The position numbers and the translations under genes are program-made. This document shows, one piece after another, positions 14,526 through 50,019 of a DNA stretch of 64,000 nt. Source of the stretch: Coffea arabica (lineage: Eukaryota > Streptophyta > Magnoliopsida > Gentianales > Rubiaceae); contig NC_092323.1 in the NCBI RefSeq assembly GCF_036785885.1, forward strand, positions 5,372,501-5,436,500, given 5' to 3'. Every line of letters starts with the position of its first letter. Positions within the stretch are counted from its first letter, which is position 1. The notes below the pieces were generated by a model, which had not been told where the DNA came from, ran no database searches, and saw nothing but the letters and a program-made list of their open reading frames with translations.

Positions 14526-16254
14526 CAAAACTTATTTCATGTATACAACGATTTTTTTTTTCTATGTGATTTACTCCGTACATTACAGCTGCAATCGGAG
14601 TATGACACCACCATCATAAATTTCCTAAACGATTGGCAAGTCAAAACTAAACAAAAAATTTCCTAAATAGTTTCCTGGTAGTTTCTGATTCGAAGAAATT
14701 CTTTTTTTTTTTCTTCTTTTTCATCCAACGGAACTACGTACTAGCCAGACTGCATGGGGGGGGGGGGGGGGGCAGTGATAATACCTAAAACGGTGCGCTT
14801 TTGAATATTTGGCTGTGGTCTACTCGGCAGTTGATTCAACTCGAGTGAGGACAAGGGAATTTTCTTTTATTCCTCTACCTTTTGATTCCGACTAAACCCG
14901 AATTTACAGCCAAGATGCTGCAGTGCTGCAAGACAAATACACCGATTTCTTTATGTTTTTATTTTGTAGTACAGTATTATACAAAAATCCACCGCCTTTT
15001 GATTTCGTCTCATCTCTCTCTCTCTCTCTCACCAACTAGTTTGTCCACATAACTATTGAATTAAATCCATGTCCCACTCCGTTCGAGAATCAATCATCGC
15101 TGATCCCCTCCTAAGCTAAACAAAGAAACCCAACTCTAATCAAATCAATTATAATCAATCCCATTCACCAAAAAGAAAAAAAAAAAACAATTCCCTCTTT
15201 TTTCTGCCACGTGGATTTCCACTGTATCAACCTGGCCCGCTCTCAGTCCACCCTCACGATCTTTTTGAAATTTTTTATTCTCACTCGCAGCAACGCTTAA
15301 TCCGGTTCTATCTCAATTACGAGAAATTGCACTGTCAGTCCTTGACACTTGCAGAGCTTTCATCTGTCGCCGTTTACATCACACAATTTCACACTGGTCC
15401 TGCTGATTTTCACTTATATGTAGGCACTCCTTTTATATATACACTAAAAAAAAAAAACCTTCTCACCCCTCTCCGCACGCCTCCCACCTCCAACCAATTG
15501 CTAAATACACGGATTCGAATCTTGAACCTAGAGAGACGCCTCTAAAAGTACTGTTATAATCACTAAATAGACTTTAATAATTATCATATTAGTACCATGT
15601 GCGCTAATTAATCAAGAAGAAAAACAATCTTAAAAAAGATTCAGACTACTACTTACGATTATTGAATGAATACTTAGTATGAATTGGCAACAAATATTTT
15701 CAAACCGGATGTAATAATAAACACATTAAATATTTTGGCAACTTAGTATCCGGTGTGAGATTGTATATTAAAAAAAAAGTAGTTGAATTAAAGATTTGGG
15801 AAGAGATTTTGTATTATACACGGACGCATTACAATTGATTGTGTGCCATGTTGAGTGCCATGAGGGACCTTAGAAGATTGCATTGTATATCTGAGACACT
15901 GCTGATGCAATTTCCCAAAAACTATTAAATTTTATTTTCCGACAAAAGTGTAACATCGTCGATCGTGGTTTCTTTTTTATCAACTTCTGCTCTGAACCCG
16001 CTCGCAGATCTCTCTTTTTTCTCGCTCTATCAGCAGTCTGCAGCAGAGACAAAGTTCAAAGCTTTCCCCCTCCAAAACCCCAATAAGTAAGGAAAAAAGA
16101 AATTATAGCTTCAATTCAATCTTGAACTGGCAATGGTTTCAGTTCTGAGCTAAGGATTTTTCGTTCTAGATAGGGTTGTGTTTGGGGAGGGAGGGAGCTC
16201 AGGTGGTAATAAATTCCAAATAACGAAGAGGAAAGAGCACCTGAAGTCCTGAAC

Positions 16255-19200
16255 ATGGGTATTTGCACTTCCAAACCCTCCCCGGAACCCAATCTTCATC
16301 AAGATTCCAAGCAAAACCCTATTCCAACCAAGGATAAAAATAACCCAGCCCAGGTCAAGGATAATGGTGGAAACTCCAGCAATCAGCAAGAAAGCAAGAA
16401 ATCAGATGCGGAATCCGCTAAAAAATCTCCGCTTTTCCCCTTTTACAGCCCTAGTCCAGCGCATTATTTGTTCTCCAAGAAGTCTCCGGCGAGATCTTCC
16501 GCGAATTCCACGCCCAGGAGGTTTTTTAAGCGACCGTTCCCGCCTCCGTCTCCGGCGAAGCACATTAAGGCGGTGTTAGCTAAGAGGCACGGGTCTGTGA
16601 AGCCGAACGAGGCGTCGATACCGGAGGGGAATGAATCCGATACGGTGGCGGCTCTGGATAAAAGCTTTGGATTTTCTAAGCATTTTGGAAATAAGTATGA
16701 GCTGGGAGAAGAAGTGGGAAGAGGGCATTTTGGGTATACTTGTAAAGCTAAGTTCAAGAAAGGGGAGCTTAAGGGGCAAGAAGTTGCCGTTAAGGTCATC
16801 CCAAAAGTCAAGGTTTGGCATTTTTCAGAGTTTTAATTCTACTTTGCTGACACTTCAGCATTTTTTTTGTAGCTATTTTCTGAAAGTTCCTATTTTCTCT
16901 TTTGGTGTGATCTATGTGAGTTGAGTAGTGGTAATCCGCATTGATTTATTGATTGATCGTTATTGAAGTTTCAGAGATCAGATCTGTGAAAAGGAAATTA
17001 GAGGAAGCAGTAAAAGATCATGTTTGGGAGTGGAATTTGCCCTTTCTATAGATGTTTTTGTCCAGTTGTGATGTTTAAGTAGTATACTGGGTTTTAGCTG
17101 GAAAGATGGTAGCGTTGATTTTTCTATTCTTCTAGCTTTAGTCTATGGGAGGTTTTACACGTTTGACCTTATTTTCCATGTTTTTCTCCTAGTACATGTG
17201 ATTTTCAATAAGCATATAGGAAGATTTTTTGTCCTCTCTCTGCTATTCCTTTTTCATGAATAGTAATATTGGAGCAGAGAGTTTCCATGATCATGTTTGT
17301 ATCACCGATGCTTGCACTAATCTTCTGGCTGGCCTTTAACATTAAATTGGACTTCAGATAGATTCCATGGATGGCTGCTTGTTGGTTATTGTGCGTTAAG
17401 AAGACTTGAGATTCCATATATTACACAAGGAATTAGTAGTCTTATATGATGTCAGGATAATTAGCTTCTGTAGTTATTAGTACTTGTTTTGGGAGGACGC
17501 TCCCGCTATGTGGATGAATTCTAATGCTCTTCCACATTGTGCATTTTTCATTGTTCATGTGTCTGCGATCTGATACTTATCCCTAAAAGAAATGTTCTTT
17601 TCAATCTGATGGGACATATGGATAGTCTTTTTTTGTTGCTCTATTTTTCCAGTATGTTGCTTTTCATTAGATTTCTATATTTTATTGCTCTAGGACCATG
17701 TATTATGCTTTTGAATGTGTTTGTTTTCATGCATTTCCTGTGAAGTTTGGTTATTGAAATTTCTTTTACAGCAAGTATTTCTTTTCTTTCTCTTGAACCA
17801 GATGACCACTGCCATAGCCATTGAAGATGTAAGAAGGGAGGTAAAGATATTGAGAGCCTTAACAGGACATAGCAATCTCGTACAATTTTATGATGCATAT
17901 GAAGACCATGACAACGTCTTCATTGTAATGGAGTAAGATCTGATAACTTGATTTGAGGCCCATCGTATTTCTTTACCTATGTGTCTGTGTATGTATTACT
18001 CAGAGTTTCTTTGCCTATGTATCTGTGTATGTATCAACTAAGAGACTTTTGGATCAAATTGCTTTAGCAGTAAATTTACAGTTTTGCACATGTTATGACT
18101 TATGTGGCTTCATCATGTTTTGTTTCTTGCCTGTTGTCGTTTTAATACACAGAGACATGTGCATTCATTCCATTGTATCTGAACGTTTTGACAATTCTAA
18201 AATTAGTTATCATGCTTTTTGAAGGCTTTGTGAAGGAGGGGAGCTTTTGGATAGAATACTTTCGAGGTAATTCACTTGTTTTAGTGTAATTAAATACCTG
18301 GTGAACTTTAGTGCCGTTGAGTTTCTGATGGTGTTTAGGAAAGATATTGTAGAATGGAACTCTGTGATAAAAGGAGCTCTTTTGTTCTGCAGGGGTGGGA
18401 AATATGCAGAAGATGATGCAAAGGCTGTGATGGTACAGATTCTAAATGTTGTTGCTTTTTGTCATCTGCAGGGTGTGGTGCACCGGGATCTTAAACCTGA
18501 GGTGGGAGATCTTTTGATTTTAAACTGCTTATACTTTTAATTCTCTCTTGAATCACAACATTTTGTTTCTTTCTGCCACTCTCCCTGCCTATTAGCTTGA
18601 TAGTCCCCCTTCCCAAGAAGACTAAACTGGTTGTGAACTTTTGTAACTGAATTTTTTGTTCATCAACGTACACTTTTACAGAAGTGAAATGTCAAGATGA
18701 CATGTTAGTTCTCGGGGATACAATATATTCATGCTTGTCAAAGAAGATATGCCACTTCATGTTTATTTTCCTACCTGCCCTATGTTGTTGCTGTGCTACA
18801 TTCTTGTCTAACTGTGGCTTATTGCTGGAGCAGAACTTCTTGTTCACTTCTAAGGATGAGAATTCACAACTTAAAGCTATTGATTTTGGATTATCAGATT
18901 TCGTCAAGCCAGGTTTTTTCTCTGTCCCTAGTCTTCTTAATGGTTAATATCTGTATCCTCCTTTTGGTAGTTCTGGAAAATTAACTATCCAACTGAATGA
19001 AATAATTGCTTCTCAGATGAAAGGCTTAATGACATTGTTGGTAGTGCATACTATGTTGCTCCTGAAGTTCTGCACAGATCATATAGCACAGAGGCTGATG
19101 TGTGGAGTATTGGAGTTATAGCATATATTCTTCTGTGTGGCAGCCGTCCTTTTTGGGCTCGAACTGAGTCAGGGATCTTTAGGACAGTTCTAAAGGCTGA

Positions 19201-26182: not shown

Positions 26183-26194
26183 CCCCCCCTCAAG
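26183..26194 (-). other. polypurine tract of the copia element
   Basis: CTTGAGGGGGGG on the element strand lies directly before the 3' LTR, where plus-strand DNA priming occurs in copia elements. The gag-pol stop codon TGA is inside it. Confidence 0.85.
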
Positions 26195-29100
26195 TTGGTG
26201 CGTGCAGATCACAAACGCCCAACTTGCGAAGAAGATACTCGAATTGTTGTCGCCCAAGCGCCTTGGTAAAAATATCGGCTAACTGCTCAGAACTACGCAC
26301 ATAAGTGATAGTAACATTTCCACTCTGAACTTCATCACGCACAAAATGGCAATCCACCTCGATATGTTTTGTTCGCTCATGAAACACAGGATTAGCCGCT
26401 ATATGCATGGCTGCTTGACTATCACAGTAAAGATGCATAAGACCAGAATGTAACACCCCAAGGGAAGCTAGCAGACCCTTCAACCATCGCAGCTCACAGA
26501 TGGTCACAGCCATAGAGCGATACTCTGCTTCAGCAGATGACCTGGACACTGTATGTTGCTTCTTAGTTTTCCAAGATATAGGAGAGTTGCCCAAAAAAAC
26601 AAGGTATCCAGTGAGAGAGCGACGTGTCAGAGGACAGCTTGCCCAGTCCGAATCACAATATGCTTGCAGTTGCAAATTGCAGTCCGATCGAAGGAGTATG
26701 CCTTGACCAGGGCTGCCCTTCAAATAGCGAACCATCCGCAAGGCTGCCTCCCAATGCTCCTCTTTGGGTTTCTGCATAAACTGAGCTAGAACATGGACAC
26801 CATAAGACAGCTCAGGGCGTGTTAGTGTCAAATAAATTAACCGGCCTACTAACCGCCTATACTTTTCTGGCTCTACCAAAGGCATGCTGTCTGCCATTGC
26901 CAACCGATGATGTTGCTCCATCGGAATTCCTGTTGGCCGAGCACCCAATAACCCGGCATCAGCAATAATATCCAGTGCATACTTTCGTTGACAGAGAAAA
27001 ATTCCAGCCTTATTTCTAGCAACTTCCAATCCTAAGAAATATTTTAATATTCCTAAGTCTTTCATATGGAAGCATTGACACAAATATTCCTTGAATTGTT
27101 GAATTGCAGCACTATTATTGCCCCCAATTACAAGGTCATCAACATATACAAGTATACTCATTTGAATGGTATTCTGACTCAGAGTAAACAATGAATAATC
27201 AGAATGAGATTGAGAAAAATCGTACTGCCGTAAGGCATTTGTGAGTTTAGCAAACCAACAACGTGGAGCCTGTCGCAATCCATAAAGAGACTTTCGTAGT
27301 CTACACACCTTTCCAAATTGTGGAGTTGTAAAACCCGGAGGCATCTTCATGTACACTTCCTCTTTCAAATCACCATGCAAGAATGCATTGTGAACATCCA
27401 TCTGGTGAAGTTCCCATTCCTTTGCTGCCGCCACAGCCAAGAACGTGCGTACAGTCACCATTTTCACAACAGGAGAGAATGTTTCATGATAGTCAATTCC
27501 CTCAACCTGATTATTGCCAAGAATCACCAGACGCGCCTTATACCGCTCGACAGTTCCATCTGAGTTATACTTGATTTTGTATACCCATTTGCTGCCTATG
27601 GCTTTCTTTCCCGGTGGTAGATCTTCCACCGTCCATGTTCCATTAGTCTCAAGTGCATCGATTTCATTCTTCATGGCCTGGCGCCACCGAGAGTCCTTCA
27701 CTGCCTCACTATAAAATTTTGGCTCCCTACCGGTTGTCACAGCTGCCAAGAAAGACCGATGATGCACAGAAAAATTATCACATGTTACATAATGCGCTAT
27801 AGGATAAGGAGTACCTGAGGATGAGATTGGTTTGGGTGAACACGCTGAAGGGCTTATGCATTGAGCTGTGTACGTCACATAATCATTTAAGCGACTAGAT
27901 GGGTGCTTTATTCGTTGACCACGCCCAAGTTGCTCAGCAACCAATCCAGCTTCTGCACCTGTGGTGCCCCCCCTGTCTTCGTTATTCTCATCATTGTGAA
28001 CCCGATCCGTGATCTCCGGTAGTATACTCGCAACCTCTGTAAGCAGATCATCTTCCCTTGCATCATCCACTTCGTCTTCCACAAGGTCGAATGGCTCAAG
28101 TGAACTTGTCCCCAGGACATCTTTAGTCGTATTAGGTGCACTTACTTTCGCATACGGAAACTCATCTTCTGAAAACACCACATCTCGTGATACAAAATAG
28201 TCACCATTTTCAAGGTCATACAACCGCCATCCCTTCTTACCAAAGGGATACCCCACAAATAAACAACGCCGACTCCTAGTGGCAAACTTATCTCTTTCTC
28301 TATTCATATCCCTAGCATAACACAAACATCCGAATACACGAATATGTTTGTAACTGGGTGGCTCTCCAAACAAACATTCATACGGCGTCTTATTCCCCAA
28401 AAGTTTGGATGGAGTCCGATTAATCAAGTATCCAGCAGTCAGCACACATTCTCCCCAAAATTCAATAGGGAGATTCGCCTGAAAACGTAATGCCCTAGCC
28501 ACGTTCAAAATATGGCGATGTTTTCTTTCAACCCGCCCATTCTGCTGGGGTGTTCTTACGCATGATGTATGGTGTATCATTCCATTTTCAGCAAAGTAAC
28601 CATCCAAGCAAGTGAATTCCATGCCATTGTCACTTCTAACAATTTTCACATTCTTGTTATATTGTCGTTTGACCATGGCAAAGAAATTACGAAGCACACG
28701 TTCTACTTCGGACTTAACAACCAACATATATATCCACACAGCTCTTGAAAAATCATCCACAATAGTTAAAAAATATGAGGCACCACACGAAGCAGTAGTT
28801 CGATAGGGTCCCCATATGTCACAATGTATCATCTCAAAAATTGCATTTGCTTTATTATCACTAGGAAAAAATACTTCTCTAGTCTGCTTGGCTCTTAAAC
28901 AAATGTCACAAGGTTTTCCCTTATCATAATTGTTACTGCTAGAACTCACATCAGGAAGTAATCCTACTATTTTTGCAGATGGGTGTCCCATTCTTCTATG
29001 CCATAGCCCACTGATATCCAGACATTTGGTATTGCACGCTTTGATTTCTCCCATGGACTTGAGGTAGTAAAGCCCTTCGCGTCGTTCACCCGCTCCAATC

Positions 29101-30515
29101 ACCATCCTCGAAGTGCGGTCCTGTATAACACATAATTTTTTAGTAAATAAAACATTGCAATTTAATTCGTCAAGCAATTGTGATACTGAAATTAAATTGC
29201 AGTTCAAATTGGGGACATATAGCACTTTCTTCGACTTCATATGTTTCCCCAAACGAGCTGACCCTTCTTTCACTGCTATGGTTTGGTTGCCATCAGGCAA
29301 TCCTACTGCACACCCCGTCAAATTCTTCAATTCAGATAGACATTCTAAGCGTCCAGTCATATGGTGAGACGCACCCGAGTCAATTATCCAGTTCAAATAA
29401 TGCTTACCCGATAACTTTTCATTGGCACCAGGCTTGCAAGAATTCAGCAGACTCAGGAAAGCTGCCCACTGTTCACCATTCAACAATCCTTGTGCTGTAT
29501 GCTCCCTTTCTGCGGTTACTGTTGACGAGGAGGACTGACCAATCGTCTGAACAGAGTTAGCCCGATGTGCACCCCCACGTCCACGTCCTGAATTCTGGTT
29601 TCCGCGTCCACGTCCTGAACCGCGTCCATTTCCTTTGGGTCGATCACCCCACCATTCAGGATATCCAATAAGCTGAAAACAGTTTCCAGCATCATGCCCG
29701 CTGCGATTGCAATATGAACACAGCGCAGACCTGTCCTTTATTTCAGTCCCAAGTTTCCTACCTCCTGCGTTGGCCTGAACGGCAAAACTCACGGGATCTC
29801 CACGTCCCTCATTTCCTCTAGACATGCTTCGGACGCGCTCCTCTTGGCATATCAAGGAGTATGCCTTACCCACACTGGGTAGTGGTTCTGTACCAAGAAT
29901 GTTTGAACGAATTGTTCCATATGCCATGTCATCCAAACCCAACAAGAACTGATGAAGTTTCTCTTCCTCACGTTTCTTGTCAAGTTGGACTGAAAGATTG
30001 CATACGCACCTTCCACATTGGCATGTCGGAATTTGTTCATAGTTTGCTAGTTCCTCCCACAATTGCTTCAATTTCCCATAGTAGGTCACAATTGGAAGTC
30101 CCCGTTGTTTCCATTCTGCAATCTCTCCTTTGATTTGTTGTACCCGAGGCCCGTTAGCGACAGAGAACCTTTCTTGGATGTCTTCCCAAAGGTCCTTTGC
30201 AATTTCCACATGAGTTATGGTGGAACGCAAAGCTGGCTCTATCGTGTTGAGAATCCATGACACTACCATCGAATTCACGGTCCACCAATCCTCTAGATCG
30301 ACGGAATCGTCATCCGGATGCGTCACCGTTCCATCAACAAATCCCATCTTCTTCTTGGCTCTCAACGCTGTGCGCACAGCTCGAGCCCATTCATCATAAT
30401 TGTCACCTTTCAATTGTACCTGGGTAATAATGGTTCCAGGATTGTCATTCGAAGTCAAGATGTATGGTGAAACAGATTTCTTCCCAACATTCTTGCTTTT
30501 CCCTTCGTCATCCAT
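26190..30515 (-). CDS. copia gag-pol polyprotein
   Basis: One open frame of 1441 codons with no stop or shift. Domains in order: gag region (about 20-250) with the N-terminal SPYILTSNDNPG motif; CCHC zinc knuckle CSYCNRSGHDAGNC at 266-279; Gly/Arg-rich linker; aspartic protease with DSGASHHMTG at about 379; GAG-pre-integrase and HHCC zinc motif (WHRRMGHP...CDICLRAKQ, about 505-543); integrase core with CDIWGPY, RSDNGMEF and the downstream Glu; reverse transcriptase with QMDVHNAFLHGDL and the YVDDLVIGG active site; and RNase H with AYCDSDWASC, SRSSAEAEYRS and LYCDSQAA. Integrase before reverse transcriptase is the copia order. The start ATG lies 1 base downstream of the primer-binding site. 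All key catalytic residues are visible, so it may be active. Confidence 0.96.
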   Translation of the reverse strand: MDDEGKSKNVGKKSVSPYILTSNDNPGTIITQVQLKGDNYDEWARAVRTALRAKKKMGFVDGTVTHPDDDSVDLEDWWTVNSMVVSWILNTIEPALRSTITHVEIAKDLWEDIQERFSVANGPRVQQIKGEIAEWKQRGLPIVTYYGKLKQLWEELANYEQIPTCQCGRCVCNLSVQLDKKREEEKLHQFLLGLDDMAYGTIRSNILGTEPLPSVGKAYSLICQEERVRSMSRGNEGRGDPVSFAVQANAGGRKLGTEIKDRSALCSYCNRSGHDAGNCFQLIGYPEWWGDRPKGNGRGSGRGRGNQNSGRGRGGAHRANSVQTIGQSSSSTVTAEREHTAQGLLNGEQWAAFLSLLNSCKPGANEKLSGKHYLNWIIDSGASHHMTGRLECLSELKNLTGCAVGLPDGNQTIAVKEGSARLGKHMKSKKVLYVPNLNCNLISVSQLLDELNCNVLFTKKLCVIQDRTSRMVIGAGERREGLYYLKSMGEIKACNTKCLDISGLWHRRMGHPSAKIVGLLPDVSSSSNNYDKGKPCDICLRAKQTREVFFPSDNKANAIFEMIHCDIWGPYRTTASCGASYFLTIVDDFSRAVWIYMLVVKSEVERVLRNFFAMVKRQYNKNVKIVRSDNGMEFTCLDGYFAENGMIHHTSCVRTPQQNGRVERKHRHILNVARALRFQANLPIEFWGECVLTAGYLINRTPSKLLGNKTPYECLFGEPPSYKHIRVFGCLCYARDMNRERDKFATRSRRCLFVGYPFGKKGWRLYDLENGDYFVSRDVVFSEDEFPYAKVSAPNTTKDVLGTSSLEPFDLVEDEVDDAREDDLLTEVASILPEITDRVHNDENNEDRGGTTGAEAGLVAEQLGRGQRIKHPSSRLNDYVTYTAQCISPSACSPKPISSSGTPYPIAHYVTCDNFSVHHRSFLAAVTTGREPKFYSEAVKDSRWRQAMKNEIDALETNGTWTVEDLPPGKKAIGSKWVYKIKYNSDGTVERYKARLVILGNNQVEGIDYHETFSPVVKMVTVRTFLAVAAAKEWELHQMDVHNAFLHGDLKEEVYMKMPPGFTTPQFGKVCRLRKSLYGLRQAPRCWFAKLTNALRQYDFSQSHSDYSLFTLSQNTIQMSILVYVDDLVIGGNNSAAIQQFKEYLCQCFHMKDLGILKYFLGLEVARNKAGIFLCQRKYALDIIADAGLLGARPTGIPMEQHHRLAMADSMPLVEPEKYRRLVGRLIYLTLTRPELSYGVHVLAQFMQKPKEEHWEAALRMVRYLKGSPGQGILLRSDCNLQLQAYCDSDWASCPLTRRSLTGYLVFLGNSPISWKTKKQHTVSRSSAEAEYRSMAVTICELRWLKGLLASLGVLHSGLMHLYCDSQAAMHIAANPVFHERTKHIEVDCHFVRDEVQSGNVTITYVRSSEQLADIFTKALGRQQFEYLLRKLGVCDLHAPT

Positions 30516-30516
30516 A

Positions 30517-30528
30517 GCTCTGATACCA
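30517..30528 (-). other. primer-binding site (initiator tRNA-Met)
   Basis: TGGTATCAGAGC on the element strand, directly adjacent to the 5' LTR. This is the standard plant copia primer-binding site, complementary to the 3' end of initiator methionine tRNA. Confidence 0.95.
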
Positions 30529-30763
30529 TGAAAGAAATTCTGTGAGGGAAAAGTTCCCTTTCTATTGCTTCCGTGCCTTCCATATATACAGGTACCGAGA
30601 CCAGAGTCCTATTACATCCCAATTGAAAAACAGAGTTCTATCACACCTCAATGACAGAGGTCTAACATACCTCAACTACTCCTAAAGATATTACCGAGGA
30701 AAACGGGTACAGAGAGTAACCAAAGGTACCCAGATAGACATATACCTAATATAATCTTCAATA
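30529..30763 (-). repeat. 5' LTR of the copia element
   Basis: Same 235 bp as the copy at 25948-26182; I found no mismatch by eye. It carries the promoter that should drive the gag-pol transcript. Confidence 0.95.
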
Positions 30764-35825: not shown

Positions 35826-38800
35826 ATGGAGTGGGCGACGCTACAGCATCTAGATCTCCGGCACGTTGGTCGGAGTTCGAAATCCTTGCAGCCTCATGCC
35901 GCCACATTTCACCCTACTCTGGCTATTGTGGCCGCCGCTGTCGGAACTCACATCATTGGTAAACTGATTTCCTTTGTAATTTTGATAATTTCCTTTGATC
36001 TAAGGCAATTGCCTGCTTAATTTTTTGTTAAATTATTTGCTTAAAATCTAGAATTCGATGCGCATACTGGAAGTAAGATCGCGGCCATCGATATTGGTTC
36101 TCCGGTTGTGCGTATGGCTTATAGTCCTACCAGCGGCCATGCCATCATTGCAATACTCGAGGTTAGTTTTGGATGAAATTTCAATGAACAAACTGTATAG
36201 TTGTACTTTTTGAAACCGTAAGATCAGTACTCCGATTGTTGCTCTTCTTCTGTGCTCTCATGTCAATTACTTCGTCCTTCGTTTAAGATAAATCTTTTTT
36301 TTCAAAAAAAAAAACTATTTATAATGTGCTTCTTTAGTCTATAGAAACTGACAGTGGAGCATTTCCTGCTTGTATGGGGAAATTTGGTGTTTCATGCGCA
36401 GGATTGTACAATTCGATCCTGTGATTTTGACTCTGAGCAAACATGTGTGCTGCATTCACCTGAAAAGAGAATGGAACAAATTTCTTCTGATACAGAAGTT
36501 CATCTTGCCTTGACTTCTCTTCAACCTATTGTGTTTTTTGGTTTCCATCGAAGGATGAGTGTAACAGGTTGGTTTGGTTGTCAGTTGTGCAAGTAGTTAT
36601 ATAATCTTTTCCCTCTTCTGAGCCAGGATATAGGTTACTTGTAGACTATACTTGCTGTTGGCAAACAAACCTCCCAAAAGACGGTAACAAATAAGTGAAC
36701 AATGGAATGGCTTAGATGGCTAATATTATGTTGGAATGCATATTCTTATACTGTCTTTATGCATTAAAAGATAAGGTAGAAGGAGATGTACTCAAATACA
36801 TACACAAAATTCAACTGTCATTTGACTATACAAGTACTTTCCAACTTCTAAACAACCTCTGCTTAACAGACAGGAATTATTATATTGCCATAAAACTTTG
36901 AAATTTCAATGCGTAAAGAATGAGTTAGAAATGGATACTATGCAGTTGGCATATATGCATGCCTGACAACCAAGACGCTCACTGGAAATAAACATCATCA
37001 CCATAAACTGCTATGAAGTGGCAAGGAAAAATAAATATAAAATCTTTAAATTAATTACTTTGGAGAAGAAAGGATGGAGTTTAAATCATACAAGTACCTG
37101 ACATAAGGGATTGGCAACTTAAGAGCTACCCATGAAACTCACTTCAACATGATTATGATAAGTTTTGTTTGGATAGAATGAGTGCAAGCTATAAAGCTTA
37201 TGTTTTTAGTTTAATGTTTTTAAACTCGACAACATCCAGCGAAGATGAAAAGGCAATTGTCAGGATAGCATTGATAGCATTGTGTTGCTTGTCTCTCTTC
37301 TATTTAATGGGATTCATCTAGCGAAATTTATTTTCTTATCTGTCTCCATCTCGCTGCTCCCCTGTCTGACTTGAACTATATCATGTCACATACATAATTT
37401 TATCAGTTATGCTTTTCTTCATGTAGCTATTTTCTTGGAATTGGTTTTCTAACTTCATGGTATTTGCTCTTCTAAAGTTGTTGGAACAGTGGAAGGTGGG
37501 AAAGCTCCTACGAAAATAAAGACAGACCTGAAGAAACCTATTGTTAATCTTGCTTGCCACCCTCGCCTTCCTGTTTTGGTAAAATTTTTTCTCTAGTTTC
37601 TGTTCCTTTCTAGATCTATCTTCTGCCTTTAATGCCAAGGACTTTAACTTGTGGGTATTGAAGTGAGCTTTTCTCGTCTTCCATTCCAGTATGTAGCTTA
37701 TGCAGATGGTCTGATCCGAGCCTATAATATCCATACATATGCTGTTCATTACACCCTACAACGTGAGATTTACTTAACTTTCATTTGTGATATTATAGTC
37801 TAGTCCTCTAGTAGATATCTCTCTCTCTCTCTCTCTGGGGTTAGTGATTCCATCTCTATTTTTTTTATGTCATTTTAGTTGATAACACCATAAAGCTAAT
37901 TGGAGCTGGAGCATTTGCCTTTCATCCAACATTAGAGTGGGTTTTCATTGGTGATAGACGTGGTACACTTCTTGCTTGGGATGTATCGACTGAAAGGCCT
38001 ATGATGATAGGGATGTAAGTTTTACAAGGTTCTGCTACTGTGTTTATGAATTGCCTCCATGAGGATGAGTTCTTATGCATTTAAAGATGTGCACTTTTGT
38101 GTTATTTCTTGTTAAGGAAGTAAAAGATGATGTTAAATAGAAGTCAGGTAGTCGCCCACTTCAACCTTGCACCAAATAAAAGACCAGTTAGAACTATTAT
38201 TAAAAACATATTATTTTTAGTGTTCATAGTAACATGTACCTCTCTCTCTCTCTCTCCCCTTAATATGTGGTGAATAGGCTCACATTGCTGGAAAATTTAT
38301 TGAGCTTTTGGTATTGGTTTTGCTTAATGTATAATCTAATTTAGCTGTATATTGCTTTTGATACAACAGTGCAAATGTTTGCTTCAGCAGCATGTTTGGA
38401 AGTCAGATGTAATTGCAAGTTCCACATCATTCCTTCTTGCATACTAATGGAGTTTCCGTTACTTTGCAAATTTTTCTTGGCCACTTGTGAGGGAATAATA
38501 TTGGATCCATGGATTTGTTACTAATCTGTGATGTGAACGTATTTGTGGTTATTTCTGTTTCTTTTCCTCAATTCTGTTTAGTTCTGAATCATGAAGTTTC
38601 TGTCTACTAATGGAAATTGCAGTACTCAAGTTGGTTCTCAGCCAATTACATCAGTTGCTTGGCTCCCAGTGTTACGGTTACTTGTTACGTTGTCAAAAGA
38701 TGGAAGCATCCAATTATGGAAGACTCGAGTTAATGTGAATCCCAATAGACCTCCAATGCAAGCAAATTTTTTTGAGACTGCTGGTTGGTTTACTAGTTGA

Positions 38801-41800
38801 TTCCTTGTAGAATAATATTTTGCACTAATTGTTGTGCATATAGCAACTGGAAAAGGAGGTTAACTGAGTAATCCAATTCATTTTTTATCCTCTTATTGGT
38901 TTGTCTACATACATGGATTTCATTAGAGAAGAAGATGAGCAAGCCTTATACCTCAATAATCATACATAACCTATATTAAATACTATTATTCAATGAACCC
39001 TACTGATTAGAATCATGTACTCCTGTGTGAATAATGTTACATTGGGCTAGAAGAAGTTGAAAATGAGGTTGACTTAGAAGCTGTCATAGTAAAACAATTA
39101 GCGAGGCATTTATATTGAAATAATTCTGTGACAACTGTAACGTCGCAGAGCATCTTTTAAGAGGTAAAGTAAAGCTATCTTGAGGCCTTGCTGAAAGGCT
39201 CTTTAAGCTTTCATAGATGTATGGTGTTCTTGTCTGAGTCCATATTAATGCTGAATTTTATTCTTTTTCCAGCAATAGAGATGGCATTACCTGCCAACAT
39301 ACAAGGATTGCTATAACTGTAGGCTTCCGTATGGCAATGTCATACTGCAAGATGTTCACATACACATGCATTCTCACGAGCTCTACCTTGGTAGATAACA
39401 AACTTTGGAAGAAAAATGTAAACATATCGTTACATCTCTAATAAAAATCTTTTTTTTTTCTTCAAGCAGTTTTCATAGGATATGTGCCACAATCCATAGC
39501 ACACACTGATGTTAGAAATTGTATAGGTTTTCGATACCTAGATAAGACTATCTTTGTTCCCTATGAAATTTAGAGGGGCCTAATCAGAATTTAACTTCTG
39601 AGTCCCAACCTTGAATCGAGAAATCGCTATTGTCGTGAAGCTTCTAAAGAAGCAAAGAAGTTCGAATATTTTATATGCAATGAAGCTGACAAAGGTGGGA
39701 GGAGAAGAACAATTTGAAATGACAAAGTTATTCCTCTTTGTTTTGAAGACGTTGTGGTTTGTCTCTTAGATCTGAGTGTTGTGGTCTGTCATGTGTCTGA
39801 AAAAAGATTCAATAAGATATTCATTTTTTTTTTGCTATTTTTTATTCCTTGTGCAAGTGTTATGTCCTATGGTTCTCTGATGGATGTTTCTTGCACTGTC
39901 TTACGCAGGAATTGAATCAATTGACATCCCTCGGATTCTCTCTCAGAAAGGGGGAGAAGCAGTTTACCCTTTACCACGAATAAAGGCTTTAGAGATTCAT
40001 CCAAAATTAAACCTGGCAGCTGTATTGTTTGCAGTGAGTGTTGCGTTAGTATCATAAATAGCTCACTCAATTCTTTGTCTAAACAATTTGTTGTTGTGTA
40101 ATAGAGTATGACCAGTGGAGACAACCGAAAAAACAGATCTGCATATACAAGGGAAGGACGGAAACAGCTGTTTGCTGTTTTGCAAAGTGCAAGGGGATCT
40201 TCAGGTGATACTTCTCTCTCGATATGCTATTAGATATTCATTTTGTGCCTTCCATTTTCTATGTCAATTGTGATAGAATTCAAAATTTCTGCCTTTTTCT
40301 TTTATGCATTGTACTTTAGTAAACTAAGCTCTTTCTTTTATTTGGCCTTTCTCTGGTGTTGTTTCAGTGGATTTATTTTCACAGTCAAACCAGTCAGAAA
40401 AAGCGAAACATTCTTGAGAAGATAATATCATCTTTGTTTCTTGATTGGGTTGTTTGTTTTGAAATGTGGTGGAGAAGTTTTAAGACTTTAGGTACATAAG
40501 TTCTCATTTTGGTTATTGAGGAGAAATATATATTCTATACAATCAAGTAAATGCTGTGTAAGCAATTTTTTTTTTCCATTTTTTTCCTGAAAGGCATTGG
40601 ATTTTTTACAGTGTTAAAGGAGCATATAAGCACATAGAAATTACCAAAAATTTGCAGTTTGTTTACCTTGGGGTCCGTGTTGGCAAGCTTTGAGGTTTAG
40701 GTGTATTTGATGATTTTTTTGCCATGGTTTTTAATAGCCCTAATAATTCATCATGCAGCATCTGTGTTGAAGGAAAAACTCTTATCTCTGGGTTCATCTG
40801 GAATATTAGCTGACCATCAGCTTCAAGCACAATTACAAGAGCATCATTTGAAAGGGTTAGTTGGTAGCTATTCTCTTCTTTTTTTCTTTTTACAAAGTTG
40901 GTGGTGTCAAGTGAAGCTGGGTTTTATTATTCTTTGTACCTTACATTAGTATGTTCTATGTGGTTAATTACAAACCCTCCCCTCCATCCCCACAATTCCA
41001 GACCCAAAAAAAACAAAAAAATGAATGAAGAAAGCAAGTGGAGCATTTTGTTAGCATCACTAATAGATTGTTACAAATGGTGAAAATTCTGAGTTGTCCT
41101 TCGAGAGAAAGTGTTAACCTGTTTGTGACACAGAACAAGAAGGGTAAAACAGTGATAACTGATAAGATGCCTTAAACCTTCTATGCTGAGCACAATCTAG
41201 CCATAATGCTCATCAATTAATTTGTACAATTTTCAGGTTCATGAATATGCTCTTAATTTTTTGATTTGAATTATGTGGTTAACTCATCTTATCAACCACC
41301 TCAATTGTGTGATGATAGAACATTGATTAATATTGCTTAGACTTAGAAGTTGTGTTTTGTATCTCTTATCACTTCATTCTCAATATGGTGATTAAGAAGA
41401 CATTGTTATATCTTATGAGATGCTAACCAGTACAGAATTTGCCAAACTTCTGCTTTCTGTACTTGACATAGACCTTAAATCTAATAATTTCCTTTCCCAA
41501 TACTTTATGCATGAAAAAGAAGTTGTTATCACATTTTTCCAACTTTCCCTGTTAAGTTTTGTTGGTCGCACACAACAGATCTTGCACTTTTCTCTTAAAA
41601 TGCTATTATGTTTGCTCTAGATGGTCATCATGTCATGGTTAGATTACTTGAGGGAAATAAATCAAGTGAATATTCTCCATCAGAAGTAGTAGTACCTAAC
41701 TGTTTGTAAATTAAGTCTAGAATCACCTGCAATTGCTAATTATGCAGCAGGAATTGCTTGATTGAGTACCTGATCATTTAGTTAGAGTTTATCCTGAATT

Positions 41801-44800
41801 AGCTGATTCCAGTAATTCAGAGTTCAAGGCATTTTTTTCATCTGTCTTGAGCTATAGCAATTGTTTTTCTCTTAGGAAGGAAACATTAGAGTTTTTTTTT
41901 TTAATTTTGAATTTCTTGATGATTAATTAGAAGCAACACAAGGCCATTTTGTAATTTTTCTGAGCTTAGATTGAAAATTTTTATGGTAAGCTTTTGCATG
42001 TTTGGTTTTGTATTTGTTTTGTCATTCTTTAGTTTATTCTTTGCCATGGCTATACTCTCCTCCTAAACAAAGGAGTACTTGTATGCTGATAAACCATTTG
42101 CTGGTTTCATCTCAGTCAAAATCAAATTACAATATCAGACATTGCACGAAAGGCCTTTCTTTACAGTGTATGTCTCTCTTAATTTATTTCCGCTTCTCTA
42201 CTAAACATACTTTATGTCGTTGATCTCTGTGGATTAATTGCTCTTTTCTGTTGGCCTCATATTTTGCGTAAAAAATATTTTAGAGGGTGCTCTTAGATCC
42301 TCATTTTTATTATTTCTTTTAGAGCATATTGGGTCTGGCATTGCCTCAAGGTACAAATGATTCAACTTGATTTTATATTTTGCAGACAATTATCACTGGA
42401 CCTTCTAAGTGATGATTATATTCCTAATAAGAGCTTAATTAACATTTAATTTGTTGTGGTTCTTCTTATCTGTCTTTTTCTGCTTTTTGCAAAACAAATT
42501 TGATTTTCAGAACTAATTACATGTCTAAAAACTATTAAGGTTCAGAAACCAATTTCTGATGCCTAGCTGGTCTTGTGACTTGCTTGTATCATGCTTTTGT
42601 GTTTAGCACATCCTTCAGACATACTGTAAAGATACAGGTTTTTATATGCATAAAATGCACCCTTTTACTTGTCTTTCCATCTTTATGTAGCTGGAGATGT
42701 TGAACTTGGCAATACATGTCCTCTCTCTGTTTTTGATCTCAACGGCAGTACTTTATGCGAGTGGTGTTGAATAATTAAATTTTTACCTGGCTGTTGCAGC
42801 ATTTTATGGAAGGACATGCCAAAACTGCTCCAATAACTCGGTTACCTCTCATCACTATCTTGGATACTAAGCATCTTTTACGAGATGTTCCTGTTTGCCA
42901 GGTGACTATGTTGGTTGCATCCCAGTCTTTGATTTCTAATGTATCATAACTTGATCCTAATGTGCTATGTGTTTTTTTCAGCCATTTCATCTGGAGCTAA
43001 ATTTTTTCAGTAAGCAAAACCGAGTACTTCATTATCCTGTTAGGGCTTTCTATTTGGAAGGGGCAAATCTCATGGCTTATAATCTCTCTTCTGGAGTGGA
43101 TAATGTCTACAAGAAGCTATACACCTCGGTGAGATTTTTTTTTTCTTTTTCTTTTTTTTTGGGCAAATTGATTTGTTGCGGTTTGGTTCTGAATAATTTC
43201 TGTCTCAGATACCCGGGAATATAGAATATCATGCGAAGTGCATTGCTTACAGTAAAAAGAAGCACCTGTTTCTGGTTGTTTATGAGTTTAGTGGCACTGC
43301 ACATGAAGTGATTCTATATTGGGAGAATACAGATCCTCGTTCAACTAATAGTAAAGCAAATACGATCAAAGGTCTTCCCCTTTTGTTACAAGTGTTAATT
43401 TGTGCTGCTGCATCTTTTTGTTGTATTTAAATTCATTCAGATCAATAAGCTAAGTTCATTTCCATCAATTTTCCAGGTCGAGATGCTGGTTTTGTTGGTC
43501 CTAATGAAAACCATTTTGCAATTCTTGATGAGGACAAGACAGGACTTTCTTTATATATATTACCTGGAGTGGCTTCACAAGAGTCTAAGGACAATAATAG
43601 CATGATTGATGGAGACCAAGCTGCCGGTCCTGACATTACGGATGTTACTGCTATTAAGGGCCCACTGCAGTTTATGTTTGAAAGTGAAGTTGATCGTATT
43701 TTTTCTTCTCCACTAGGTAGTTTTATGAACAATATTTTTATGTTAACCTATTTTTAGGCTTATAAACTTCTGACTGATCATTCCACGGATTTAGAGTCAA
43801 CCATGCTCTTTGCTTCGCATGGGGATCAAATTGGCTTGGCAAAGCTTGTCCAAGGATACCGCCTTTCAACTGCTGATGGTCATTTCATATCAACTAAAGC
43901 TGAAGGGAAAAAATCAATCAAGTTGAAAACCAGTGAGATGGTACTCCAGGTAATTACTCTGGGACCTACTGAATTACTACCACCAATTCCTTCATTTATC
44001 TATTATTTTATTTTTTTGCTTTCAATATTATGGCTTATAATTTGAAAAACTTATAGGGAACATGCAAATGCATAAAGAGACGATATTTGCTCTGCAATGA
44101 TTACACATGTAGTATTTCTTTAGATTCTTTATAAACATCTAACTTCTTCTGGGAATATGGCATCTTACATCTTAAATTTGTTCAAGACACCAGATGGTTT
44201 AAGTGGCATCTCACATCTTATTTAAGTGCAGGAGTACACTTGTGATTGTGTATTCTTTACACAAGTTTACTTACAGTTATAGGTTTTGAGTAGGCAATAC
44301 TTGGCCTGCTTTAGCTGTGCTCCCATACCTTAGCTTGTGAATTTTTTAATTTTACAATCTGACAATGATTTGAAGTAAGTATCAAATATCAGTCACAAAC
44401 GGCCTTTAGACTGTGAATTTGTATCTGAATTGAAAGCACTTGCTTGAAGCATGATGATTATTAACATTGACCATCTTATATCTTGTAACACATGCGGCAT
44501 TTAGTCTTTGCTTCTGTTATACTATGATTTTTGCAGGCTTGTGATTGATTAAAAATTCTGAGGGTAATATTGCTTATGTTTCTAATATGGTCCTCTTAGG
44601 TGCACTGGCAAGAAACTCTCAGGGGCTTTGTTGCCGGTATACTAACTACACAGAGAGTGCTCATTGCTTCAGCAGATCTGGATATATTGGCCAGTAGTTC
44701 TACGAGATTTGATAAGGGGCTGCCTTCAATATCCTGAATACAGTGTTGCCTTGTGATTTATTTTTTTGATTCTCTTCCTGTGCGTTTGGATTTGTTTGCA

Positions 44801-47800
44801 TATGTTGATTCAATGTCTGTGAATTGCTGGAGTCTTTAACATGTGATTACTTTAGATCCCTTCTCTGGATTGGGCCTGCTCTTCTCTTTTCTACTGCTAC
44901 TTCCATCAGTATGCTTGGCTGGGATGGAAAAGTGAGAACTGTACTTTCCATATGTATGCCAAATGCAGGTATGCACTTAAGACTTGCGCCAAGTGTGACT
45001 GGTTACTTTCTTTGTGGAGAATACTGGTGTAGATTGTTTTACCTTTTTCACATCTCAGTCACATGATTCCTGTTCTGACCCAAAAGGGATGACTTTTTTT
45101 TTTTCTTTTGGCTGTGCAGTACTTGTTGGAGCTTTGAATGATCGCCTGTTGCTTGCAAACCCTACAGATATAAATCCCCGACAAAAGAAGGGGATTGAAA
45201 TCAAGAGTTGTCTTGTGGGCTTGCTTGAGCCACTTCTTATCGGATTTGCGACAATGCAGCAACATTTTGAGCAGAAGCTTGATCTACCAGAAGTACTTTA
45301 CCAAATCACCTCAAGGTTCTCCTGCTTATAGAACTTCCTCTTCTCTACTTATTTAATTTCATTGAATTGTAAAGAACTTACGCTTTGTTCCTCTTTTTTT
45401 TTTTAATTCTTTTGCTGCATTATGACCTCAGAGATTTATGATATCAAGCTTTTCTGACTGCTCTCGCTCATCATGTTCATTTTCTCCATGAAGGTTTGAT
45501 AGCTTGAGGATTACTCCAAGATCACTTGATATTCTTGCCAGTGGTTCACCAGTTTGTGGTGATCTTGCTGTTGCTCTGTCGCAATCAGGCCCCCAATTCA
45601 CACAGGTGATATATGTGCATTTTGTTCAATATCAATGACAATCTGTCGTAGAGTTATTAATTTAACTTCTTTGTTTTAAGGTGTTGCGAGGAATCTATGC
45701 AGTTAAAGCACTTCGCTTTTCTACTGCTTTATCTGTCCTAAAGGATGAGTTCTTGCGGTCTAGAGATTATCCACGATGCCCCCCAACCTCACATTTATTC
45801 CACCGATTTCGCCAGTTGGGATATGCATGTATCAGGTGGTTGAACATTTTTCTTCTTTTCGGACACATATTTCTGGTCTACTGTACTTCTTTTGATTGCT
45901 TTAGCATGTTCTGCTGTGACCAGCCATTGTACACATAGAAAATCTATGGTTTTGACTGAGCAATAAGTTTGTTCTTTCTCTCATCTCAGTAATCTACATC
46001 CCACTTCAGGACTTGATGCCGAAGGCCACAGTATCTAAATGTCAAGTAGAAATTCATTGTAGTTTGTTGTTTTGATACTTCTGCATGTAAATGTAAACTT
46101 GAATTGAACTGAAGGCCCTGCTTTTGTCGATAAACTATTTTAAGTTTGCAACCGGATATCCTTTTGTCTATAAATTATTTTAAGTATGAAGCCAATTTAC
46201 TGTAGAGTGGCTATCCTTGTAACAGATGTATTTAAGAATTTATCTTTATAACTTGTTCTTTCTTTTTTACATTGGAACGATATGTGAATTTGCAGATATG
46301 GTCAATTTGACAATGCAAAAGAAACTTTTGAAGTAATAGCAGACTTTGAAAGCATGCTTGACCTCTTTATATGCCACCTTAACCCTAGCGCAATGAGGCG
46401 TCTTGCTCAGAGATTGGAAGAAGAGGGCGCTGATCCAGAGTTAAGGCGATATTGTGAAAGGATTTTGAGAGTCCGCTCAACAGGGTGGACCCAAGGCATT
46501 TTTGCAAATTTTGCTGCTGAAAGTATGGTTCCTAAAGGACCTGAATGGGGTGGTGGGAACTGGGAGATTAAGACTCTTATTAACATGAAGGACATACCTC
46601 AATGGGCACTGGCTGCTGAAGTGATGCCTTATATGAGAACTGATGATGGCACCATTCCATCCATTGTTACTGACCACATTGGTGTTTATCTGGGCATCAT
46701 TAAAGGAAGAGGAAATGTTGTTGAAGTGAGAGAAGATAGTTTGGTGAAAGCATTTAAAGCTGAAGGTAGTAACATCAAAGCAAATGGACTTCAGACAGCT
46801 CTAGCCACATCAACACCTGGCAAGTCTAATGGGGTTCCTGAAGGTGAACCAAAATCGAATTCCTTGATGGGCCTAGAAACCCTCTCTCAGCAATTTTCGG
46901 GTTCTCATGCAGTTGATGAACAAGCCAAAGCAGCAGAGGAATTTAAAAAATCGCTGTATGGTTCTGCCGCTGATGGTAGCAGCAGTGATGAGGAAGAAAG
47001 TTCAAAGACCAAAAAGTTACACATTCGAATTCGAGATAAACCAGTCACATCATCTACCGTGGATGTAAATAAGATTAAAGAAGCCACAAAGCAGTTGGGT
47101 TTGCCGATGGGTAGAACCAAATCATCCACTGGTTCATCCCCGGATCTTGGCCTGATTTTATCTCAACCTGCTCCTCCCACCACTGGAAGTGTGACAGCTC
47201 CTACAGTTTCTGCACCTACTGATCCTTTTGGAACAGACTCTCTGGTGCAACCTACATCTACCTCACAGCCTTCCCCTATTTCTACTGGTGCTGGAGTTAC
47301 ACCTAGGCCGATCCCGGAGGACTTCTTCCAGAATACCATATCATCTATCCAGGTTGCTGCATCACTGCCTCCTCCTGGAACTTACCTTTCGCAACTGGAA
47401 AAGAATTCTCAAGGATTACAAGGTAACAAGGTTGTGGCTAACCAGGAGAGTGCACCTGTAGCTGATATAGGTCTACCTGATGGTGGTGTCCCACCACAAG
47501 CAACGCAGCAACCTGTTTCATCTGATTCCATTGGCCTTCCAGGTGGTAGCATACCACCACAGTTAAGTGTTCAGCCTGTCATGCCAGTGCAGTCTCAGCC
47601 TCAGATGGCACAAGTTCCAATCTCAACACAGCCCCTTGATCTCAGTTCTCTGGAAGCTCCAGGTTCTGGAATGCCAGGAAGAGCTCCTGAACATCCCACT
47701 TCTCCAAAAGCTGTACGTCCTGGACAGGTAAGCATTTAGTTTTGTTTTCATCATCTCTTGTTGTCAAATACTAAGAATTTAAAAGAATCAAAACCTTGTT

Positions 47801-49554
47801 AGTCAGGGCATAAAGGGTTTCCCGGAAAAGTCTAGAGATGGTTTATCTCAAGATATAATGAATGTGGAGATATTATGTGGCAAACCATGCTCGTAGCCGT
47901 CAAAGTTCTCATCAGACCGCCAAAAAAAAAAAAAAGAAAAAAAAGGAAAGGAAACACACTACATTAAACAAAATGTACGAAACACACTACATTAGACGAA
48001 ATGTCTGAAGGTTCAATTTAGATGCAAATTTTGATTCCAACTCAACACAATGTACGTTCAGTTCTTCAAAATGTAATCACTTTGAACACAAGTAAACATA
48101 GAACAAATTTTTATGAGTGCCATACATGGTGTTAAAAATGATGTACATGGCATATACAAATAGAGAACATAAAATATGGCAGTCTAGTATCTGCCGCAGA
48201 CTATCGGGGTTATGTTTTATGTTTAAAAACCTGGCATATGGTTATTCTGCCTTAATCCTTTTATTCTACTCATTACAGGTTCCTCGTGGGGCTGCTGCTC
48301 CATTTTGCTTCAAGACCGGAATGTCTCATCTTGAGCAGAATCAACTTCCAGATGCATTATCCTGCTTTGATGAAGCTTTCCTAGCACTGGCCAAGGATCA
48401 GTCTCGTGGAGCTGATATCAAGGCTCAGGCCACAATATGTGCTCAGTATAAAATTGCAGTCACGCTACTCCGGGTATTGTAATTCTTAACCTTGGGAAAA
48501 CTCATATGGTCTCTCTTCAGGTATCAGTTTAAAATGTCTTTTACACGAGGAGTGAGCATGCATAAGGTTGGTATAGCCAAAATCTGTATTCTCGTCAGTC
48601 TAGTCTTGGTTCTAAAAGTTCCATCAGCCACCTTAACATAACGAGGCAATGAAGGTCAAAGTAGGATTGAATTGGATGTTGATAAGTTCCATGACTTCCA
48701 TCAGCCGCCTTAACATAACGAGGCAATGAAGGTCGAAGTAGGATTGAATTGGATGTTGATAATTTCAATTGCCACAACTAAATATGTAAACCAAGTGTAT
48801 CATTTGTGGCCAAATTGCCACCACTCGTTGGCTTCCTAAAACAAAAGCATATGGTGAGCCTTTTGATAACCATCCTATTGCTTGATTTAGCAATCTTGCA
48901 ATCCCAAGGAGTGAACCAAAGCAAAAAAAATCCACAACTATGGTTTAATCTTCTGAATGTTATTACATGATGATTGTTAAGTAGAATTCGCTCAATTTTG
49001 TCGGTGATGTCCTTTTCATTCTTCTGGTAGCATTTTATTCCACCACATTTCCTCCGGAAATCACATGCTTTTTTTTTCCCCAGGAAATTAGCCGGTTACA
49101 GAAAGTCCAAGGCCCAAGTGCTATCAGTGCAAAAGATGAGATGGCAAGGTTGTCTCGTCACCTCGGTTCATTGCCTCTTCTTGCCAAGCACCGGATAAAT
49201 TGCATTCGAACTGCCATAAAAAGGAATATGGATGTGCAGAATTATGCCTATTCGAAGCAGATGCTTGAATTGCTCCTATCTAAAGCCCCTCCTGGCAAGC
49301 AAGATGAGTTGCGTAGCCTAATTGACATTTGCGTTCAGAGAGGATTGTCCAACAAGTCTATTGATCCTTTAGAAGACCCTTCCCAGTTCTGTGCTGCTAC
49401 ACTTGGTCGTTTATCAACAATTGGTTATGATGTTTGCGATCTATGTGGGGCCAAATTTTCTGCACTGTCCACACTTGGCTGCATTATCTGTGGAATGGGA
49501 AGCATCAAAAGATCTGATGCTCTTGCGGGACCTGTCCCTTCGCCATTTGGCTGA
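35826..49554 (+). CDS. TWD40-1: TPLATE-complex subunit, WD40 protein TWD40-1
   Basis: Twenty-four exons encode 1622 residues, close to the Arabidopsis protein At3g50590. Exons: 35826-35958, 36052-36161, 36402-36567, 37478-37578, 37690-37762, 37879-38014, 38623-38783, 39909-40033, 40105-40204, 40759-40855, 42116-42167, 42800-42901, 42982-43128, 43209-43371, 43477-43716, 43795-43949, 44600-44728, 44851-44968, 45120-45315, 45494-45605, 45681-45835, 46296-47727, 48279-48473 and 49084-49554. It starts MEWATLQHLDLRHVGR. The first ~300 residues carry WD40 repeats (e.g. FIGDRRGTLLAWD, SKDGSIQLWK). A second beta-propeller and helical-solenoid region follow, then a Pro/Ser/Gln-rich linker (about 1150-1400) with GLPDGGVPPQ/GLPGGSIPPQ repeats, and a C-terminal CDLCG...CIICG pair. 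TPLATE complex members act as endocytic adaptors at the plasma membrane. One intron is AT-AC. Confidence 0.9.
37817..37838. repeat. CT microsatellite in an intron
   Basis: About ten CT units in TWD40-1 intron 5, part of the pyrimidine-rich intron end. A second CT run lies at about 38240-38257 in intron 6. Confidence 0.85.
44729..44850 (+). other. U12-type AT-AC intron
   Basis: The intron begins ATATCCTGAA and ends GTGATTAC, with TCTTTAAC (44834-44841 approx.) as branch site about 11 nt before the end. These match the minor-spliceosome consensus (ATATCCTT, TCCTTAAC, AC). It separates Ser730 and Phe731 in phase 0. No GT-AG alternative keeps the frame. Confidence 0.88.
48619..48772. repeat. 77-bp tandem duplication in an intron
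   Basis: Two units starting at 48619 and 48696, each beginning TTCCATCAGCC and containing TTAACATAACGAGGCAATG. Only a few mismatches. It lies in the last intron of TWD40-1 and has no coding role. Confidence 0.85.
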
Positions 49555-49819: not shown

Positions 49820-50019
49820 GTGTATTCTTTGCTGTATTTAAGTGTATTGGTTTTGTATGCTTCAGCTGATTTGATTAATAACGGGAAGAGTAGGGATGGC
49901 AATGGGGGCGGTTGCCCGGGTGTATTCTTTGCTGTATTTAAGTGTATTGGTTTTGTATGCTTCAGCTGATTTGATTAATAACGGGAAGAGTAGGGATGGC
50001 AATGGGGGCAGGTGCCCGC
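49820..50019. repeat. 100-bp tandem duplication spanning a MITE junction
   Basis: Two nearly identical 100-bp units (49820-49919, 49920-50019) start GTGTATTCTTTGCTG. Each holds 3'-flanking DNA of TWD40-1, the GGGAAGAG target sequence and the first ~28 bp of the outer MITE. Only the second copy continues into a full element. Confidence 0.9.

Follow-up and report, generated by a model that had tools for sequence, protein, structure and literature searches.

How the exons of a protein-coding gene are joined across a gap that begins with AT and ends with AC is the question raised by this locus. In the window, the 64-kb stretch of DNA analysed here, a TWD40-1-like gene is divided by 23 introns, 22 of which have the ordinary GT-AG ends and one of which, the 17th, has AT-AC ends. 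A preliminary description had read this last gap as an intron of the minor spliceosome, and its coordinates, its length of 122 nt, its ATATCCT start and its AC end are all exact when read from the sequence, as is the branch site that it placed 11 nt from the end (TCTTTAAC, found at 44833-44840). A U12-type AT-AC intron in the TWD40-1-like gene is the best reading of the locus, because the motifs, the reading frame, the weakness of other joins and the two copies of the gene all agree with it. We put the probability of a true intron that the minor (U12-dependent) spliceosome excises at about 0.94, where both the splicing event and its agent are predicted from the DNA sequence.

Splice signals of the AT-AC intron

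The coordinates of the intron, its splice signals, the neighbouring exons and the host gene are collected in Table 1.

Table 1. Features of the host gene and its AT-AC intron, in positions of the window.
Feature	Position	Strand	Remarks
TWD40-1-like gene	35826..49554	+	24 coding exons, 1622 codons plus stop
Exon 17	44600..44728	+	ends ...KGLPS
AT-AC intron, U12-type	44729..44850	+	intron 17, phase 0, 122 nt
5' splice site, ATATCCTGA	44729..44737	+	ATATCCT equals the U12 consensus
Branch site, GTCTTTAAC	44832..44840	+	
3' splice site, AC	44849..44850	+	11 or 12 nt past the branch A
Exon 18	44851..44968	+	begins FRSLLW...

In its sequence the intron carries the hallmarks of the U12 class. The conserved donor of that class reads [AG]TATCCTT; when scored against the U12 donor consensus over nine positions, the donor found here has 7/9 matches, a score that no other of the 23 introns reaches (the others have 2-6); at donor position +8, a G is found where the consensus has T. 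The branch site also matches 7/9 positions of its consensus, TTCCTTRAY, and does so at 11 nt. Two other introns of the gene hold a 7/9 branch match, but at 6-7 nt from the end. Either of two adenines could serve as the branch nucleotide, the one at 44839, 11 nt short of the intron's final base, or the one at 44838, 12 nt short of it, and both distances fit the optimum of 11-13 nt published for U12-type introns (PMC3584512). The 20 nt before the AC contain 10 pyrimidines, whereas 20 of the gene's 22 other introns contain more; so low a count suits minor introns, which are described as having no polypyrimidine tract (PMC3584512).

The intron sits after codon 730 of the 1622, and splicing it out preserves the reading frame. 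Were it retained, translation would meet a TGA stop at 44735, two codons into the intron. No repeats were found around the intron, and an Rfam search of the 64-kb window gave no match at the gathering score.

Set beside known U12-type AT-AC introns, this one shares the ATATCCT donor, the TTCCTTRAY-like branch site, the 11-12 nt spacing, the scarcity of pyrimidines before the 3' end and its occurrence as the only such intron in the gene. It differs in the +8 G, the 7/9 branch match and phase 0, none of which is foreign to the class. The ends of U12-type introns are either AT-AC or GT-AG, and the ends are AT-AC in both copies of the gene that we describe below. A single U12-type intron per gene is typical (PMC3584512). 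Because phase 0 is disfavoured among minor introns, with an average of 22% (PMC10639083), its phase makes this intron somewhat uncommon but not out of the ordinary; the phase bias is given as not significant in three of the plants studied (PMC7367187). For Arabidopsis, 269 U12-type introns are counted in the IAOD, 26% of them AT-AC (PMC7367187), and the present intron is of the same class and likewise lies in a plant gene. AT-AC splice sites average 0.06% in plants (PMC6310983).

Chance, alternative joins and the major spliceosome

The extent to which chance explains such a motif pair can be read from 30 first-order Markov windows built from the window. A random strand is expected to hold 10.0 AT-AC motif pairs if distances of up to 3 kb are allowed, and 0.27 if the limit is 200 nt. 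The real window holds 14 pairs of up to 3 kb on its two strands, 7 per strand, the intron's own pair included, and two of up to 200 nt, namely the intron and a pair at 380-465 on the - strand. Taken alone, then, an AT-AC motif pair proves little; the evidence for the intron is that the pair fills the exon gap in frame.

We tried GT-AG, GC-AG and AT-AC joins of at least 60 nt, with donors from 44641 and acceptors to 44913, and 22 of the 117 keep the frame open: 1 GT-AG, 9 GC-AG and 12 AT-AC. Only one of these 12 AT-AC joins has a U12 donor, and it is the intron in Table 1. The GT-AG and GC-AG joins on this list leave room for the major spliceosome to use another join here, which we nevertheless consider very unlikely. 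The single GT-AG candidate, 44657-44832, would yield ...TTQR-SLTCDY-FRSLLW..., and the preliminary claim that GT-AG splicing cannot join the exons was nearly right but has to give way on this one open, in-frame join. Its cost can be judged from a coding score, the codon log-odds under a table trained on the gene's remaining sequence. The 24 codons that it drops (44657-44728) score +8.7 bits and thus look like coding sequence, whereas the six codons that it adds score -2.5 bits; the whole AT-AC intron scores -14.8, -24.4 and -24.1 bits in its three frames, and exon 18 just +0.2 bits. In addition, the donor of this join, GTGCTCAT, looks poor by eye, and the fit of the ATATCCT, the branch site and the AC would have to be coincidence. 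As for the GC-AG joins, all nine lose part of exon 17 or exon 18.

A different possibility is that the AT-AC intron is real but a substrate of the major (U2) spliceosome. We regard this as extremely improbable, since the intron has the two features that define the U12 class, the ATATCCT donor and a U12-like branch site 11-12 nt from the end, and lacks ATAAGT, the donor of U2-type AT-AC introns. What speaks for it is that the terminal dinucleotides do not by themselves set the class of an intron (PMC3584512) and that some AT-AC introns are U2-spliced (PMC3584512, PMC6310983).

The host gene and its surroundings

The exon borders were placed by hand from splice dinucleotides and an unbroken frame, aided by general knowledge of the Arabidopsis protein, and the resulting 24-exon model, which includes the join of 44728 to 44851, is without an inner stop. 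From its apparent likeness to the Arabidopsis protein, the gene is putatively TWD40-1 (AT3G50590). TWD40-1 has two beta-propellers and, after them, a COPI-like alpha-solenoid. A Pfam search of the product gave 20 families at E values of 0.1 or less, none of which reaches its curated cut-off; among these are WD40-type matches, the best at residues 155-274 (E 3.8e-9), the COPA/B second propeller at 482-577 (E 9.6e-6) and the COPA/B TPR region at 913-968 (E 0.0083). These weak matches follow one another in the order expected of TWD40-1, from WD40-type propeller to COPA/B propeller to COPA/B TPR. The apparent likeness and this weak domain order together suggest, but do not prove, TWD40-1 and hence a subunit of the TSET/TPLATE complex. 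One of two PDB searches returned no match and the other returned two at chance level (E 0.69 and 0.9), and a search among viral contigs returned two pattern matches, neither of them a relative. The TPLATE complex has been described as one that plants cannot live without (PMC7615741), and male sterility is described for plants in which any of several genes of the complex is knocked out (PMC6853982); the TWD40-1-like gene may be essential in this species.

The gene has other features around it in the window. Just past it, a stretch of about 89 bases occurs twice on the + strand (49821-49909 and 49921-50009, a spacing of 100, by eye), and a G+C-rich run follows the pair in a region that is otherwise A+T-rich. 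A single unbroken frame of 1472 codons occupies 26190-30608 on the - strand and reads like what we assume to be a Ty1/copia-type retrotransposon polyprotein. At 16213-16836 (+) there is an open frame that looks like exon 1 of a gene related to calcium-dependent protein kinases.

A second copy of the gene

A search of the genome (1.198 Gb in 131 contigs) gave one further copy of the gene, on contig C13, which is 98% identical over the 400 bases surrounding the intron. When the same genome was searched at the protein level, with 11 candidates scored, these two near-identical copies alone were matched, with 2 exons each, counts that are lower bounds. The copy on C13 has an intact frame of 1622 codons, and its end dinucleotides equal those of the first copy at all 23 introns, the AT-AC one included. 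Between the copies the AT-AC intron is identical at 120/122 positions, and the two changes, at intron positions 35 and 62, are outside the donor and the branch site. This agreement is weak evidence of selection, because the introns of the two copies are only about 2% apart (2/122 here against 173/8734 aligned positions overall), and with copies so alike the sharing of the intron is not strong evidence for it either.

The comparison bears also on whether the locus could be a broken gene copy, with the AT-AC intron a chance reading of the damage. Of the 45 codons that changed between the copies, 19 are non-synonymous, which is no strong sign of constraint and would suit such a reading. We find it barely credible, however, given that both copies keep the intact frame of 1622 codons and the same splice dinucleotides at 23/23 introns, and that their exons differ half as much as their introns (46/4869 against 173/8734 positions).

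Across the genome, genes and pattern matches tend to come in twos, on contigs with adjacent numbers (C3/C4, C5/C6, C9/C10, C11/C12, C13/C14 and C19/C20). The pairing suggests either phased haplotypes or two subgenomes. Because several searches match such paired contigs, the two copies of the gene may be haplotypes or homoeologues.

Minor spliceosome RNAs and a model for splicing

Three of the four minor spliceosome RNAs have loci in the host genome that score over the cut-off of their Rfam models: 2 for U12, 10 for U6atac and 4 for U11. The U4atac model gave no match anywhere in the genome, which is no proof of absence and perhaps reflects a limit of the model or of this first look. In both U12 copies, GTCCCACATCG lies 76 bases upstream. 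Near the 5' end of five of the eight U6atac loci retrieved (out of 10 found) is AAGGAGAGA, and four of these five loci share an upstream element like that of U12, which we take to be a plant snRNA promoter element.

If one A is left bulged, the U12 RNA of this genome can form 7 contiguous pairs with TCTTT(A)AC, including a single G-U pair. The AGGA of U6atac can pair with donor positions +4 to +7 (TCCT), but not with the +8 G, leaving 4/5 pairs; in an unguided search for pairings of 6-8 nt between the donor and U6atac, another register ranked higher.

We propose a model in which the ATATCCT donor would be recognised by U11 and then by U6atac, while U12 would pair with the branch site and bulge an A as the branch nucleotide. 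The short spacing of 11-12 nt would then pick the AC as the 3' end, and the phase-0 junction of exons 17 and 18 would read ...KGLPS-FRSLLW..., within a TSET/TPLATE endocytic complex subunit. The order of U11 before U6atac, the pairing of U12 with the branch site and the spacing rule are established for introns of this kind.

A genome-wide pattern, ATATCCTT-N55-85-TTCCTTRAY-N8-11-AC, returned 22 rows, two of which overlap at one place, against 6 in a reversed control, and several rows fall in contig pairs. The intron described here does not itself fit that pattern. The excess over the control hints at further minor introns, all of them candidates at this stage.

What the intron may mean for the gene

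Introns of this kind are well known, and the present one is a new instance in a class of genes where they had been found before: vesicular transport is listed among the functional classes of U12-intron genes (PMC3584512). A search of published papers found no report of a U12-type intron for TWD40-1/AT3G50590, for TPLATE or for clathrin/coatomer genes; the terms AT3G50, transducin and WD40 are all absent from the main text of PMC4892727. Perhaps the intron is already implicit in the minor-intron catalogues.

For annotation, a gene finder restricted to GT-AG introns would be expected either to split the gene at the border of exons 17 and 18 or to leave out the 24 codons discussed above. Minor introns of the AT-AC type are reported to require dedicated factors, which are CENATAC in humans and DROL1 in Arabidopsis (PMC11039992). 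One could imagine that the phase-0 AT-AC intron is an old control point that has been kept: the level of TWD40-1 would be set by minor-spliceosome splicing, with AT-AC-specific helpers like DROL1 taking part, and in plants at large endocytosis would thereby be tied to how active the minor spliceosome is. We think this unlikely.

Neither the consequence for annotation nor that for endocytosis changes what is known of minor introns as a class. What would follow concerns the gene itself, which probably depends on the U12 spliceosome, judging by its splice signals. If it does, a subunit of an essential endocytic complex would need the minor spliceosome, and therefore endocytic defects could belong to the effects of minor-spliceosome mutations in plants.
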